This document shows positions 1 through 6,771 of a stretch of DNA of 64,000 nt, in pieces. Every line of letters begins with the position of its first letter. Within the stretch, counting starts at the first letter, position 1. Under the pieces are notes generated by a model. The model saw only the letters and a program-made list of their open reading frames with translations. It had not been told where the DNA came from and made no database searches. The translations under genes and the position numbers were made by a program. The stretch lies in assembly GCA_019187485.1 (NCBI GenBank), contig JABAQR010000016.1:1-64000 (forward strand). Reading direction: 5' to 3'. The DNA is from Lysobacterales bacterium. Lineage in GTDB: Bacteria; Pseudomonadota; Gammaproteobacteria; Xanthomonadales; SZUA-5.

Positions 1-696
1 GGCCGTGTCCAGCCAGCGCGCGATGCCGAAGTCGATCAGGCGCGGTTGGCCCTGCGCGTCGACCAGCAGGTTGCCGGGCTTGAGGTCGCCGTGGGCGACC
101 AGTCGCGCATGCGCGTGCGCGACCGCCGCGCACACCGCCAGCAGCAGGCGCACGCGCCCTGCCTGCGGCAGCTCCGCGATCGCCTGCTGCCAGCCGCGCC
201 CCTCGACGTACTCCTCGACCAGCCAGGGCTGGCCCTCGGCGTCGATGCCGGCGTCGAGCAGGCGCGCGATGCCGGGGTGGTCCAGGCTGGCGAGGATGCG
301 GCGCTCGGCCGCCAGCCGCGGCGCGGTCCATTCGGCCGCGATCCCGGGCGCCAGCAGCTTGATCGCGACCTTGCGCTCGAACTGGCCGTCGCAGCGCTCG
401 CCCAGCCAGACCTCGCCCATGCCGCCGCTTCCGAGCCGCCGCAGCACGCGATAGGCCCCATAGGCGCGGCCGACCAGTTGCCGGCGCGCCAGTTCGGCTT
501 CGGCATCGTGCACCGCGCGTGCACCCAGGGCATCGAAATGGGCCACGGCCGGCGCATCCGCGGCGATCAGCGTGCGCGCCTGCGCGAGCAGTGGCGGATC
601 GTCGTGGAGGGCCTCGGCGAGCACCGCATCGCGCCGCTCCGCCGGCGCCTCCCAGGCCGCCTCGACGGCCGCCCGCAGGCGCGCGTAGTCGCTCAC
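1..696 (-). CDS. Serine/threonine protein kinase, partial (3' end outside window)
   Basis: Partial gene: 232 codons are visible from a GTG start at 696 and the frame is still open at the left edge. After an alpha-helical N-terminal region of about 80 residues comes a Hanks-type kinase domain: glycine loop GSGGMGEVWLG (about 89-99), ATP-binding Lys113 in VAIKLL, catalytic loop HGDLKPGNLL with Asp204, and DFG at 222-224. The Arg of the usual HRD motif is Gly here, so it is a non-RD kinase. The GTG start overlaps the stop of the upstream sigma-factor gene (GTGA), which implies translational coupling. Sigma factor plus kinase pairs are common in this order. The C-terminal part, often with TPR or sensor domains, cannot be seen. 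Confidence 0.9.
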   Translation of the reverse strand, partial: MSDYARLRAAVEAAWEAPAERRDAVLAEALHDDPPLLAQARTLIAADAPAVAHFDALGARAVHDAEAELARRQLVGRAYGAYRVLRRLGSGGMGEVWLGERCDGQFERKVAIKLLAPGIAAEWTAPRLAAERRILASLDHPGIARLLDAGIDAEGQPWLVEEYVEGRGWQQAIAELPQAGRVRLLLAVCAAVAHAHARLVAHGDLKPGNLLVDAQGQPRLIDFGIARWLDTA

Positions 697-1235
697 CGGG
701 GCGCGCCCGTCAGTTGCCGGTACAACCAGGTGCGCGCGAAGGCGTAGTCGCGCTTGACGGTCGCGCTGCCGCAGCCGAGTGCGAGCGCGGTGTCGGCTAC
801 GTCGAGTCCGCCGAAGACGCGGCAGACGACCACATCGTGCGCGCGCGGATCGAGTGCGGCGAGCGCCACCAGCGCCTGGTCGACCGCGAGCAGTTCCTCC
901 GCCGGCATCTGCTCGACATCCGCATCGGCAAGTTCGACCGCGATCGCGCCGCCGCCGTGGCGCGCGCTCTGCGCTCGGCGCGCGCGGTCGACCAGCAGGC
1001 AGCGCATCGCGCGCGCGGCGAGATGGAAGAACTGGGCGCGCGTGACCCAGTCGACGCTGCGCTGGCGCGCGAGGCGCTCGTAGGCCTCGTGGACGATGCT
1101 GGTGGTGCTCGCCTCGCCGCCGCCAGCGCGGCGCCGCTGGCGCGCCGCCAGCGCGCGCAGTTCCGCATAGACGCGCTGCGCCAGCGCCGGATCGCCGCCG
1201 CCGAGCTCGTCGAGGAAGCGGTTCAGGTCGTCCAT
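693..1235 (-). CDS. ECF-type RNA polymerase sigma factor (TIGR02999-like)
   Basis: 180-residue protein with sigma-70 region 2 in the first half (around VHEAYERLARQ and AARAMRCLLVDRAR) and a region 4 helix-turn-helix near the C-terminus (DTALALGCGSATVKRDY). It resembles the Sig-70_X6/TIGR02999 group, whose members usually sit directly before a Ser/Thr kinase, as here (4-base GTGA overlap). It would direct RNA polymerase to a small stress or envelope regulon, perhaps with activity set by the downstream kinase; that link is inference. No anti-sigma gene lies next to it. It is divergent from the transglycosylase gene at 1331, with 95 bp between them. Confidence 0.9.
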   Translation of the reverse strand: MDDLNRFLDELGGGDPALAQRVYAELRALAARQRRRAGGGEASTTSIVHEAYERLARQRSVDWVTRAQFFHLAARAMRCLLVDRARRAQSARHGGGAIAVELADADVEQMPAEELLAVDQALVALAALDPRAHDVVVCRVFGGLDVADTALALGCGSATVKRDYAFARTWLYRQLTGAPR

Positions 1236-3473: not shown

Positions 3474-4229
3474 TCAGGCGCGCAATCCTGCCAGCACTTC
3501 GCGTGCGATCCATCCGCGCAGCAGGACGTCGGCTGGCGCCAGCAATGGCTCGGCTGCCTGTCCGGCCTCGCTCGCCACCTGCTCGACCAGCGCGCGCCCG
3601 CAGTTTCCGCCGTCTTCCTGCACCAGCGCCAGCAGACGCGCCGCCAGCGGTTCCAGGGACTGGAATTGCACCCGGTCGGCACGGTTGCGGTAGACCACGA
3701 TCCAGCTCGGCTGGGCGGGCGCCTCACCGGGCTGGCAGCCCGGTCGGATCCGGTGCACCGGGAAACGATAGCCCAGCAGCCAGGCGAGGCCAGACGGAAC
3801 CGGCACGCTCTCCAGCGGATCGGACAGCGTGGCATCGACCCGGACGTCGTCGAAACTCGCCGGATCCAGGTCCAGCGCCAACTCCACCCATTCGTAATGC
3901 GCCAGCTCGTGCAGGAAGGGGTGTTCGGCCTGCCATAGCTCGGGATGCTCGCCGAGAAAGCGCACGAACTCGCTGCCGAGTTCGTGGAACAATGGTGTAC
4001 GCGCGGCGTGCCGACGGTAGAACTCGCGCACCAGCGCCGAAAAGGGCAGATCGCCGAGCAGTCGCCGGATCACGGGGAAATTGCCGGCGAGCAGTCCGCG
4101 GACATTGTTGAACAACAGTTCGCGATAGATGCCGACGCGACGGTCTTCCAGATCCGTCGGGGCCGGCACTCGCGCGGGATCGCGCAGATGGCGCGCCAGC
4201 CGCAGTTGCAGTTCCTCAAATGACGGCAT
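3474..4229 (-). CDS. hvfC: HvfC/BufC-type DUF2063 partner protein for RiPP maturation
   Basis: 251 residues of the DUF2063 family. The N-terminal helical domain has the family signature ([29 protein letters not shown], here about residues 31-60) and the second half ([18 protein letters not shown]) resembles the C-terminal domain of these proteins. In studied clusters the DUF2063 protein binds the precursor peptide and presents it to the DUF692 oxygenase. Its first 14 bases overlap the end of hvfB, so the two are translationally coupled. The cluster order A-B-C matches hvfABC and bufABC loci. It was formerly annotated as a putative DNA-binding protein; that function is not supported by this context. 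Confidence 0.88.
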
Positions 4230-5079
4230 GGAGCGGTGTCGGCAGATCGCGGTCGACCGCGCGGGCCTGCACCGCGCGCACGCGGTCCAGTTCGGTCAGC
4301 AATTGCGGTAGCGGCGGGATGTTGAAGTCGCGTTCGAGCAGCGTCGGCCGCGTGCCGATGCGACGGTAGCTGTAGTCGAGCAACTGCCAGACCGGATCGA
4401 CGATGTCGGCGCCGTGGGTGTCGACGATCAGGTCCGGCGCTTCGTGGTAGTGACCGGCGACGTGCAGATAGGCGACGCGCGCGGCGGGGATGCGGTCGAT
4501 GAAGGCGCGCGCGTCGTAGCGGTGGTTGACGCTGTTGACGTAGACGTTGTTGACGTCCAGCAGCAGCTCGCAATCCGCCTCGGCGAGGACCGCGAGCAGG
4601 AACTCCGGTTCACTCAGCTCGCTCGCCAGCGGCGTGTAGAACGATGCGTTCTCGACCGCGATGCGTCGCCCGAGGATGTCCTGGGTGCGGCGGATGCGCG
4701 CCGCCACGTGTTTCACCGCATCTTCGGTGAAAGGGATCGGCAGCAAATCGTAGAGGTGGGCACCGTCGCTGCACCAGCTCAAGTGTTCGCTGTAGAGCAC
4801 GATGCCATGCTCGTCGAGCAAGCCCTTGAGGCGTTGCAGGAAGATCTCGTCCAGCGGATCCGGGCCACCGAGCGAGAGCGACAGGCCGTGGCAGATGAAG
4901 GGGAAGCGCTCGGTGTAGCGGCGGAAGGTCTTGCCCAGCCTTCCGCCGATACCGAGCCAGTTTTCCGGAGCGACTTCGAAGAAGTCGACGCGCGCAGGCA
5001 GCTCGTTGCAGACATCGAGCTCCGGCAGCATGCTGCGCCGGAGCCCGAGACCGGCCGCGGTTGCGGGCAGTCGTTTCAT
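4216..5079 (-). CDS. hvfB: DUF692 multinuclear iron oxygenase (MNIO), HvfB/BufB-type RiPP maturase
   Basis: 287-residue TIM-barrel protein of the DUF692/MNIO family, which uses a two- or three-iron site to convert Cys residues of a precursor peptide into oxazolone/thioamide or related heterocycles. Visible family blocks with candidate metal ligands are [57 protein letters not shown] and [13 protein letters not shown]. Length is typical. It lies 23 bp after the precursor gene hvfA and overlaps hvfC by 14 bases. The product is probably an intracellular maturase acting on the precursor before export. Family assignment is firm; the exact Cys modification is inferred from relatives. Confidence 0.93.
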
Positions 5080-5102
5080 CGGCTGCGTCCCGCAGGATCA
5101 GC

Positions 5103-5462
5103 TCAGGCTGCGCCGCCGCACTTGCCTTCTTCCTTGGCCTTGTCGCCGCCGCACTTGCCTTCGCCGCACTTGCCCTCTTCCTTGGCCTTGTCGCCACCGC
5201 ACTTGCCCTCTTCCTTGGCCTTGTCGCCGCCACACTTGCCTTCGCCGCACTTGCCTTCTTCCTTGGCCTTGTCGCCGCCGCACTTGCCTTCGCCGCACTT
5301 GCCTTCTTCCTTGGCCTTGTCGTCGCTGACCAGCATGTAGCCCTGGGCGAGGTCGGTTGCGTCCATGCCGGTGGCGGCCGTCGCGGCGGTGCCGAATGCG
5401 AGGCTGCCCAGGAAGGCGGCACCAACCGCCAGGGAAACCGGCTTGATCGTCTTGCTGCTCAT
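5103..5462 (-). CDS. hvfA: HvfA-family secreted RiPP precursor with eight EGKCG motifs
   Basis: 119 residues. A long signal-peptide-like leader (hydrophobic core about 9-24, AxA cleavage near residues 27-30) is followed by a short spacer (MDATDLAQGYMLVSDD) and a core of Lys/Glu/Gly/Cys repeats: DKAKEEGKCGEGKCGG units in 11- and 16-residue forms, giving eight EGKCG motifs and eight Cys. Such precursors are modified on the EGKCG Cys by a DUF692 enzyme and exported as copper-binding metallophores (HvfA, bufferin-like). Followed by hvfB and hvfC in one apparent operon. The repeats are nearly identical at DNA level, so motif number could change by recombination. Copper as the ligand is inference from the family. 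Confidence 0.93.
   Translation of the reverse strand: MSSKTIKPVSLAVGAAFLGSLAFGTAATAATGMDATDLAQGYMLVSDDKAKEEGKCGEGKCGGDKAKEEGKCGEGKCGGDKAKEEGKCGGDKAKEEGKCGEGKCGGDKAKEEGKCGGAA
5112..5327. repeat. Tandem coding repeats in hvfA core
   Basis: Tandem 33-bp and 48-bp units encoding AKEEGKCGGDK and AKEEGKCGEGKCGGDK, five units in all, nearly identical in bases (CTTGCCTTCTTCCTTGGCCT recurs on the + strand). The 48-bp form appears to be the 33-bp unit with a duplicated GEGKC segment. The near identity suggests recent expansion or ongoing homogenisation. Confidence 0.9.
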
Positions 5463-5530
5463 GGTCTTGTTCTCCGAATTGCGTAATGGGGCCCCGGTTG
5501 GGGCAGGGATTGGCCGCTCGCGCAGCCTGG

Positions 5531-5580
5531 ATGCCGCCGACCGTCATCGGCGGCATAAAGCTATGCCGGTCGGATGACAA
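5531..5580 (-). promoter_or_regulatory. Candidate hvfABC promoter with palindromic operator
   Basis: On the minus strand a -35-like TTGTCA (5580-5575) is followed after 17 bases by TATGCC (5557-5552), about 90 bases before the hvfA start. A perfect inverted repeat, ATGCCGCCGA (5531-5540), loop CCGTCA, TCGGCGGCAT (5547-5556), overlaps the -10 box and the predicted transcript start. That position suits a repressor operator or a 5' UTR hairpin. Promoter call is by eye only. Confidence 0.5.
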
Positions 5581-5637
5581 AGACAATCATCCGCATCCAG
5601 CACGAGTCGGACGGACCGATCTACGCGCCGAAGGCTT

Positions 5638-6771
5638 TCATCGGATGCGCGGGCCGCGCGACGAACGGCGCTTCTGGTCGCAGGCGGATTTGCCGGCGGC
5701 TGCGGATTTTTCCGGCAATCGACGGCTCGCAGGCGGATGCTGGCTGCGGTCGTTGCTCGCAGTGGCACCTGCGCCCGCGCGCAGATCCACCGGCAGCAGC
5801 GCCACCGTGACCTCCTCGCGGTCGTGATAGAGCTGGCGTGCGCGCAGTCGCCAGCCGCGGGCGAGCAGCGGGGACAGGGTGGCGCGTGCGCGCTGCCAGG
5901 CATCGAAGCGTCGCTTCATCGGCAGCTTCAGGTTGAAAATCGCCGCCCGACACCAACCTTGCGTGGCCCAGCGCAGCACGAGTTCGGCGACGCGATCGGG
6001 TTTTTCGACCATGTCGCAGACCAGCCAGTCGACTGGCTTGGGTGGGCGGTAACGGAAACCGTCCTCGCGCAGATGCCGCACCTGGCCGCTCGCCAGCAGG
6101 CTGGCGTCGATGCGGCCGTTGTCGATCGCCGTGACTCTGAGTCCGCGTTGAACCAGTTGGAAGGTCCAACCTCCGGGCGCTGCGCCGAGATCGACCGCGT
6201 TGCCGCCGGCGCGCAGCAGCGCGCCGCGTTCGCGCTCGTCGAGCAATACGTGGAAGGCCTCCTCGAGTTTCAGGGTCGAGCGCGAGGGCGCCCCACGCGG
6301 GAAACGCAGCCGCGGGATGCCGCCCGGAAAGGCCGCGCCGCCGGGGGGCACCTGACCGACCAGGGCGTGCGTGCTGGTCAGCAACCAGACGGCGGCGGTC
6401 GTGGTGCAGGCGACGCTCGCGTGCGCCCGCAGGCGTGCTTCCAGCGCGCTCGCCAGCGGCGCCAGCGGACGCGTGTCGTCGCTGTCCGGCACCACGACCT
6501 GAACCCGCGCAAACGGCGCCAGGGCAGCCGCCAGCGGCGTGACCCGGTCGCGCGGTTCGAGTGCGACCAACTCCGCCGCGACCACCATCAGCTCGCGTGC
6601 GAACAGCAATTCGTCCAGCTGCGGCGCGCGTGCGGCGGCTTGCACCCGGACCAGCGCGGCCTGCGGAGAGGCCACTCCGGCGGCGTCCAGCCCCGGCAGC
6701 GCTCGCAGCTCCGCGATCAGATCGGGCTCGAAACCGGCGCGGCAGAGCAGAGCGAGATGCATGCGGGTCAT
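5638..6771 (-). CDS. rlmM: 23S rRNA (cytidine2498-2'-O)-methyltransferase RlmM
   Basis: Methylates the 2'-O of C2498 in 23S rRNA using SAM. The protein has an N-terminal THUMP-like half and a C-terminal Rossmann methyltransferase with SAM loop DLGAAPGGWTF (194-204). The K-D-K-E catalytic residues are recognisable: Lys168 (TLKLEEA), Asp253 (VCDMVEKPD), Lys282 (FNLKLPMK) and Glu319/320 (YHDREEVTV). The reading frame runs about 45 residues past the usual family end (after HDREEVTVALLPVDL) as an Arg/Ser-rich tail with no recognisable domain; the normal stop may have been lost. It is the last gene of a minus-strand run with 38 bp to the preceding acyl-CoA dehydrogenase. Confidence 0.93.
   Translation of the reverse strand: MTRMHLALLCRAGFEPDLIAELRALPGLDAAGVASPQAALVRVQAAARAPQLDELLFARELMVVAAELVALEPRDRVTPLAAALAPFARVQVVVPDSDDTRPLAPLASALEARLRAHASVACTTTAAVWLLTSTHALVGQVPPGGAAFPGGIPRLRFPRGAPSRSTLKLEEAFHVLLDERERGALLRAGGNAVDLGAAPGGWTFQLVQRGLRVTAIDNGRIDASLLASGQVRHLREDGFRYRPPKPVDWLVCDMVEKPDRVAELVLRWATQGWCRAAIFNLKLPMKRRFDAWQRARATLSPLLARGWRLRARQLYHDREEVTVALLPVDLRAGAGATASNDRSQHPPASRRLPEKSAAAGKSACDQKRRSSRGPRIR

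Follow-up and report, generated by a model that had tools for sequence, protein, structure and literature searches.

A captophorin operon of a Lysobacterales bacterium, its hvfX on another contig, and a promoter-like element that may tie both to a scattered stress regulon

Operons for copper-binding RiPPs of the HvfABC type often keep a DoxX-like partner at hand, and the locus described here does not; is it a reduced system that works alone, or one part of a pathway laid out in several places of the genome? The locus lies in the window, the whole stretch of 64,000 nucleotides that was analysed (contig JABAQR010000016.1, assembly GCA_019187485.1). On the minus strand a precursor gene is followed by an MNIO gene and a DUF2063 gene, the operon spanning 3474-5462. 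According to the ORF coordinates, precursor and MNIO genes are separated by 23 nt, and the MNIO and DUF2063 genes overlap by 14 nt. A sequence-only reading had described one tight minus-strand operon with a signal-bearing precursor, an MNIO (DUF692) and a DUF2063 partner, and ORF layout and family profiles agree with it. The features are:

5614..5640, minus strand: promoter-like element TGAAAGC-N15-CGGTC upstream of hvfA, conserved in 9 of 9 genomes of the organism's family.
5103..5462, minus strand: hvfA-like captophorin precursor, 119 aa, eight EGKCG motifs and eight Cys (ORF, NF050137, alignment with precursors of the genus and family).
5376..5462, minus strand: predicted Sec-type signal sequence MSSKTIKPVSLAVGAAFLGSLAFGTAATA, about residues 1-29, read from the sequence, with a putative cleavage site.
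5109..5326, minus strand: repeat core of 33- and 48-bp DNA units encoding GDKAKEEGKCG(EGKCG) (repeat analysis).
4216..5079, minus strand: hvfB-like MNIO (DUF692), 287 aa (PF05114, NF003818).
3474..4229, minus strand: hvfC-like DUF2063/PME1 partner protein, 251 aa (NF050145, PF09836, PF22106).

Upstream of the operon lies rlmM (5638-6771) and downstream a convergent RlpA-like ORF, read from the sequence. A scan that took in most large ORFs in the rest of the window revealed neither a DoxX nor an exporter or copper gene beside the operon. Surface-polysaccharide genes dominate that remainder, where a long plus-strand cluster (about 22500-63200) holds a NusG-like protein, an O-antigen ligase, an ABC exporter and many glycosyltransferases. 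Searches for sigma-70 promoters and intrinsic terminators scored no better than on shuffled sequences, the window has no Rfam match or tRNA, and 5080-5640 contains no inverted repeat of at least 12 nt.

Profile matches for all three genes bear out the earlier assignment to an HvfABC or bufferin-like copper RiPP family. The precursor, which begins with MSSKTIKPVSLAVGAAFLGSLAFGTAATAATGMDATDLAQGYMLVSDDKAKEEGKCGEGKCG and in which exactly eight EGKCG motifs and eight Cys were counted, matches NF050137 (KCGExKCG_twice) at 2.2e-21, with 75.2 bits for a cut-off of 19.5. Its score with the HvfA equivalog NF050188 is 37.7 bits, below the cut-off of 95; therefore it is named here a member of the wider EGKCG family and not HvfA itself. 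In the alignment, its hydrophobic N-terminal signal sequence belongs to a layout common to all family homologues. The MNIO matches PF05114 at 2.7e-102 and the HvfB family NF003818 with 419 bits (cut-off 360), and the partner protein matches the HvfC family NF050145 at 7e-77 with 258 bits (cut-off 142), as well as Pfam PF09836 and PF22106. The solved relatives of the two proteins, 3bww (3.5e-75) for the MNIO and 3dee for the DUF2063 partner, are the pair named in PMC13097082. Across 109 MNIO homologues the Arg-Arg pair (14, 15), D251-F252, DxH (220, 222) and DVNN vary little or not at all, the last two being the iron-site motifs of MNIO, while R14-R15, D251 and F252 correspond to R15/R16/D249/F250 of FonB. 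The corresponding residues have been shown to matter in FonB (PMC13097082) and, by motif, in HvfB (PMC13419390). MNIO, PME1, HvfX and the EGKCG locus each occur once in the genome, where no second EGKCG precursor was found. The locus thus combines the traits of a captophorin (Buf_EGKCG/oxazolin type), that is, a signal with repeated EGKCG, an HvfB-family MNIO with FonB-like residues and an adjoining DUF2063/PME1 protein. It is an ordinary Buf_EGKCG/oxazolin/fontiphorin ("captophorin") operon, a new member of a kind already known.

The MNIO/PME1 pairs behind fontiphorin, oxazolin and gonophorin install 5-thiooxazoles at every motif, giving products that bind copper (PMC13097082, PMC13419390). 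The closest parallel in layout is fonABC of Fontimonas thermophila, which likewise consists of A, B and C only, with a signal-bearing EGKCG precursor and a DUF2063 partner, and whose FonB has the same substrate-contact and catalytic residues as the MNIO of the window; fonABC encodes seven motifs instead of eight (PMC13097082). The parts of the fontiphorin account available to us describe neither regulation nor any unlinked hvfX (PMC13097082). Oxazolin of Haemophilus influenzae shares the three protein families and the EGKCG motifs, but its hvfX is part of the operon and its precursor carries six motifs, as opposed to an hvfX on a separate contig and eight motifs here (PMC13419390, PMC7907618). 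By analogy with these systems, HvfC would deliver the eight-motif precursor to HvfB, a presumed mixed-valent iron enzyme, which would turn each EGKCG Cys into a 5-thiooxazole thiol with a loss of 4 Da each. The modified peptide would leave by the Sec route, as its signal sequence predicts, and would bind excess Cu(I) in the envelope. The anatomy of the eight-motif precursor gives no reason, judging from its family, to expect other than such a 5-thiooxazole, copper-binding product.

The precursor had also been regarded as expanded and its core as freshly amplified. The 33- and 48-bp repeats that build the core are real, but eight motifs do not constitute an expansion: an EGKCG-type precursor occurs in 62 of the 80 nearest public-genome loci with a median of 6 motifs (range 2-16), and among relatives in the order 38 distinct precursors carry 2-18. 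FonA has seven and HvfA six, and the longest known precursor contains 58 Cys (PMC13097082, PMC13419390, PMC12452194). Codon identity among five repeat units is 0.90, far above the 0.585 expected from local codon usage (p = 5e-5), and hence the units arose by DNA duplication. This excess over codon bias would suit a fresh amplification that tunes copper capacity through motif number, as would the number of motifs or units in close species, 8 here versus 9 in another species of the genus (G002). However, the units of that species match those of the window at 0.92, while the window units match each other at 0.90, so that there is no sign of recent homogenisation, and eight motifs are mid-range. 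Tuning of capacity is further opposed by FonA, which has seven sites yet took up no more than four Cu (PMC13097082) and so speaks against one copper per motif as a simple rule. A fresh, capacity-driven amplification is hence very improbable. Whole repeat units are, as the compared sequences indicate, gained or lost between species. In one genome (G001; L084, 1350-1375) the EGKCG array is interrupted by a stretch of N and what looks like a stop, which mark an assembly gap, and repeat numbers from draft genomes therefore need care.

The supposed lack of a DoxX and a metal sensor holds locally but fails genome-wide, where an HvfX is found on another contig and an ECF sigma/DUF3379 pair lies unlinked to the operon. 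The sole DoxX of the genome, a protein of 218 aa encoded on contig C6, matches NF050144 (HvfX) with 134.7 bits for a cut-off of 80; operon linkage, which is not an NCBI criterion for HvfX, is the usual layout elsewhere in the order. It is 66% identical to an hvfX directly after the operon in another family, and in a tree it groups with operon-linked hvfX, apart from ordinary DoxX. On its sequence, the C6 protein is a true HvfX. A DoxX occurs within 6 kb of the MNIO in 28 of 52 genomes with a close MNIO, but in 0 of 9 in the window's own family; there, 8 of 9 genomes have an unlinked HvfX, and the ninth genome is 77% complete. Among 61 genomes, an HvfX over the cut-off is present in 41 of the 52 with a close MNIO versus 1 of the 9 without (Fisher p = 2e-4). 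That hvfABC is reduced and works without HvfX, the distant DoxX having another purpose, would be in keeping with the production of fontiphorin by A-B-C alone in E. coli (PMC13097082) and with the 11 of 52 relatives that have a close MNIO but no HvfX over the cut-off. We consider it improbable, since the sole DoxX passes the NCBI equivalog model for HvfX, groups with operon-linked hvfX and carries the upstream element of the operon. With hvfX elsewhere behind the same promoter-like sequence as hvfA, the pathway looks scattered rather than reduced. A genome of the same order that is 99% complete (G016) offers a mirror image of the window: at L138 (contig C33) two consecutive EGKCG precursors (1192-1632 and 1809-2285), one of them with a lipoprotein-like signal, precede hvfX (2423 onward), and no MNIO was found in that genome, which thus has HvfA and HvfX without the modifying enzyme.

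The shared element emerged from the aligned hvfA upstream regions of the nine family genomes, all of which contain TGAAAG(C/A)-N15-(C/G)GGTC with invariant spacing. Three genomes, G000, G002 and G005, also have it 56-63 bp ahead of their unlinked hvfX; in G003 it precedes one of the two such genes, and in G007 its distance to the unlinked hvfX is 184 bp. The exact element is hence present at 5 of 9 unlinked hvfX genes of the family and absent at four (chance about 4e-17 at the observed site rate, a statistic that ignores kinship). In a wider set of loci, a slightly looser pattern precedes 24 of 82 precursors versus 22 of 1455 control stretches. The genome has nine sites, three of which precede hvfA, hvfX and a signal-bearing (exported-type) msrB; no convincing gene was found ahead of the remaining six. 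Relatives have the element before msrA (G023, G039), msrB (G002), msrP (G022, G019) and the gene of a secreted AhpC/TSA protein (G022), and also before an ECF sigma gene (G005, G022, G031); sequence likeness is the basis of the assignment for msrP in G019 and for the sigma genes in G022 and G031. Over 17 genomes the element has 133 sites, part of which were inspected, and its reversed pattern 129; being no commoner than its reverse, it owes its weight in the argument to position. Two further observations concern G023 and G039. In both, the element stands before the gene of a membrane protein of about 709 aa with a VTT domain (TVP38-type; L181-L184), which is perhaps a further regulon member; a similar protein adjoins the unlinked hvfX in G003 and G006. 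At L185/L186 a DUF3379 gene has the element at its start, and the stretch read there shows no adjoining sigma gene.

A candidate regulator is encoded on contig C14, unlinked to hvfABC, where a sigma gene is followed by the gene of a DUF3379 protein. This sigma is 71% identical to the one of G005 whose gene has the element upstream, and directly before its own gene stands CGAAAGC-N15-CGGTCT, with one mismatch to the element. A two-block element of fixed spacing thus precedes the genes of the proposed regulon and, in relatives, the sigma gene, the copy at the organism's own sigma gene having the one mismatch. From its position after the sigma gene, the DUF3379 protein is a putative anti-sigma; the literature searched yielded no mention of DUF3379. 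The window itself contains a PF07638-group ECF sigma (693-1235, minus strand), with a protein-kinase-like ORF behind it at the window edge, apparently unrelated to the operon. It was rejected as the regulator, belonging to another subfamily, whereas the C14 sigma is orthologous to those of element-bearing genes.

We read hvfABC, hvfX and the exported-type msrB as one predicted regulon of an ECF sigma, scattered over the genome and comparable to those of Caulobacter, Neisseria and Haemophilus. The Caulobacter sigma-F regulon likewise places unlinked MNIO/DUF2063 operons and the genes of a DoxX, a YedY/MsrP-like protein and an ECF sigma with its anti-sigma under a common promoter (PMC3511200). 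However, its precursors are DUF2282, its anti-sigma DUF1109 and its promoter GTAACC-N16-CGAA, whereas here they are EGKCG, DUF3379 and TGAAAGC-N15-CGGTC (PMC3511200). Neisseria sigma-E controls msrAB and a doxX cluster (PMC2893595), and Haemophilus RpoE2 controls msrAB and the hvf/doxX operon (PMC7907618), an ECF-sigma control with msrAB whose counterpart here would be the predicted control with msrB. Neither the anti-sigma proteins of these three organisms nor the promoter motifs given for Caulobacter and for Neisseria match those of this organism, H. influenzae lacking the pairing of sigma with a DUF3379 protein. The balance of the evidence leans towards an undescribed ECF sigma/DUF3379 pair which, with its own promoter TGAAAGC-N15-CGGTC, would govern, across the order, dispersed genes for captophorin, HvfX, methionine-sulfoxide reductases of the exported type and a peroxiredoxin as one regulon, HvfX acting in trans and hvfX having left the operon keeping its promoter. 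Beside this reading may be set two genomes of families with hvfX next to hvfC, in which one element precedes hvfA and another precedes hvfX.

The company of the element bears on what the peptide is for. It also stands before genes of periplasmic methionine sulfoxide reductases and of a secreted peroxiredoxin; HOCl induces the H. influenzae hvf operon through RpoE2 (PMC7907618), and chromium is among the metals to which Caulobacter sigma-F responds (PMC3511200). The peptide might thus serve a metal other than copper, or a stress (e.g. gold or hypochlorite damage), its copper binding being incidental. This is rather unlikely, as all characterised members with this core bind copper (PMC13097082, PMC13419390), and the stresses are not exclusive. 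The reading that we prefer, and consider likely, is that of a captophorin operon in which hvfABC, the unlinked hvfX and msrB are co-controlled by an ECF sigma in an envelope metal and oxidative-stress response. In it hvfX, the fourth gene, is not lost but kept elsewhere in the genome, and the unlinked sigma, held by the DUF3379 protein, would most likely recognise the element and switch on hvfABC, hvfX and msrB together, the inducing signal presumably being envelope metal or oxidative stress.

Most of the reasons for surprise at this locus dissolve; the scattered regulon and its element are worth keeping. Operons that seem to consist of A, B and C only can have their DoxX partner and regulator elsewhere, and with hvfX located outside the operon, cluster-based surveys will undercount HvfX. 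The element ties captophorins to methionine-sulfoxide repair in another lineage, and the sigma/anti-sigma pairing, unlike those of Caulobacter, Neisseria and Haemophilus, suggests that the same stress logic has been wired repeatedly. Moreover, the element provides a sequence handle for finding further members and for testing the role of HvfX.
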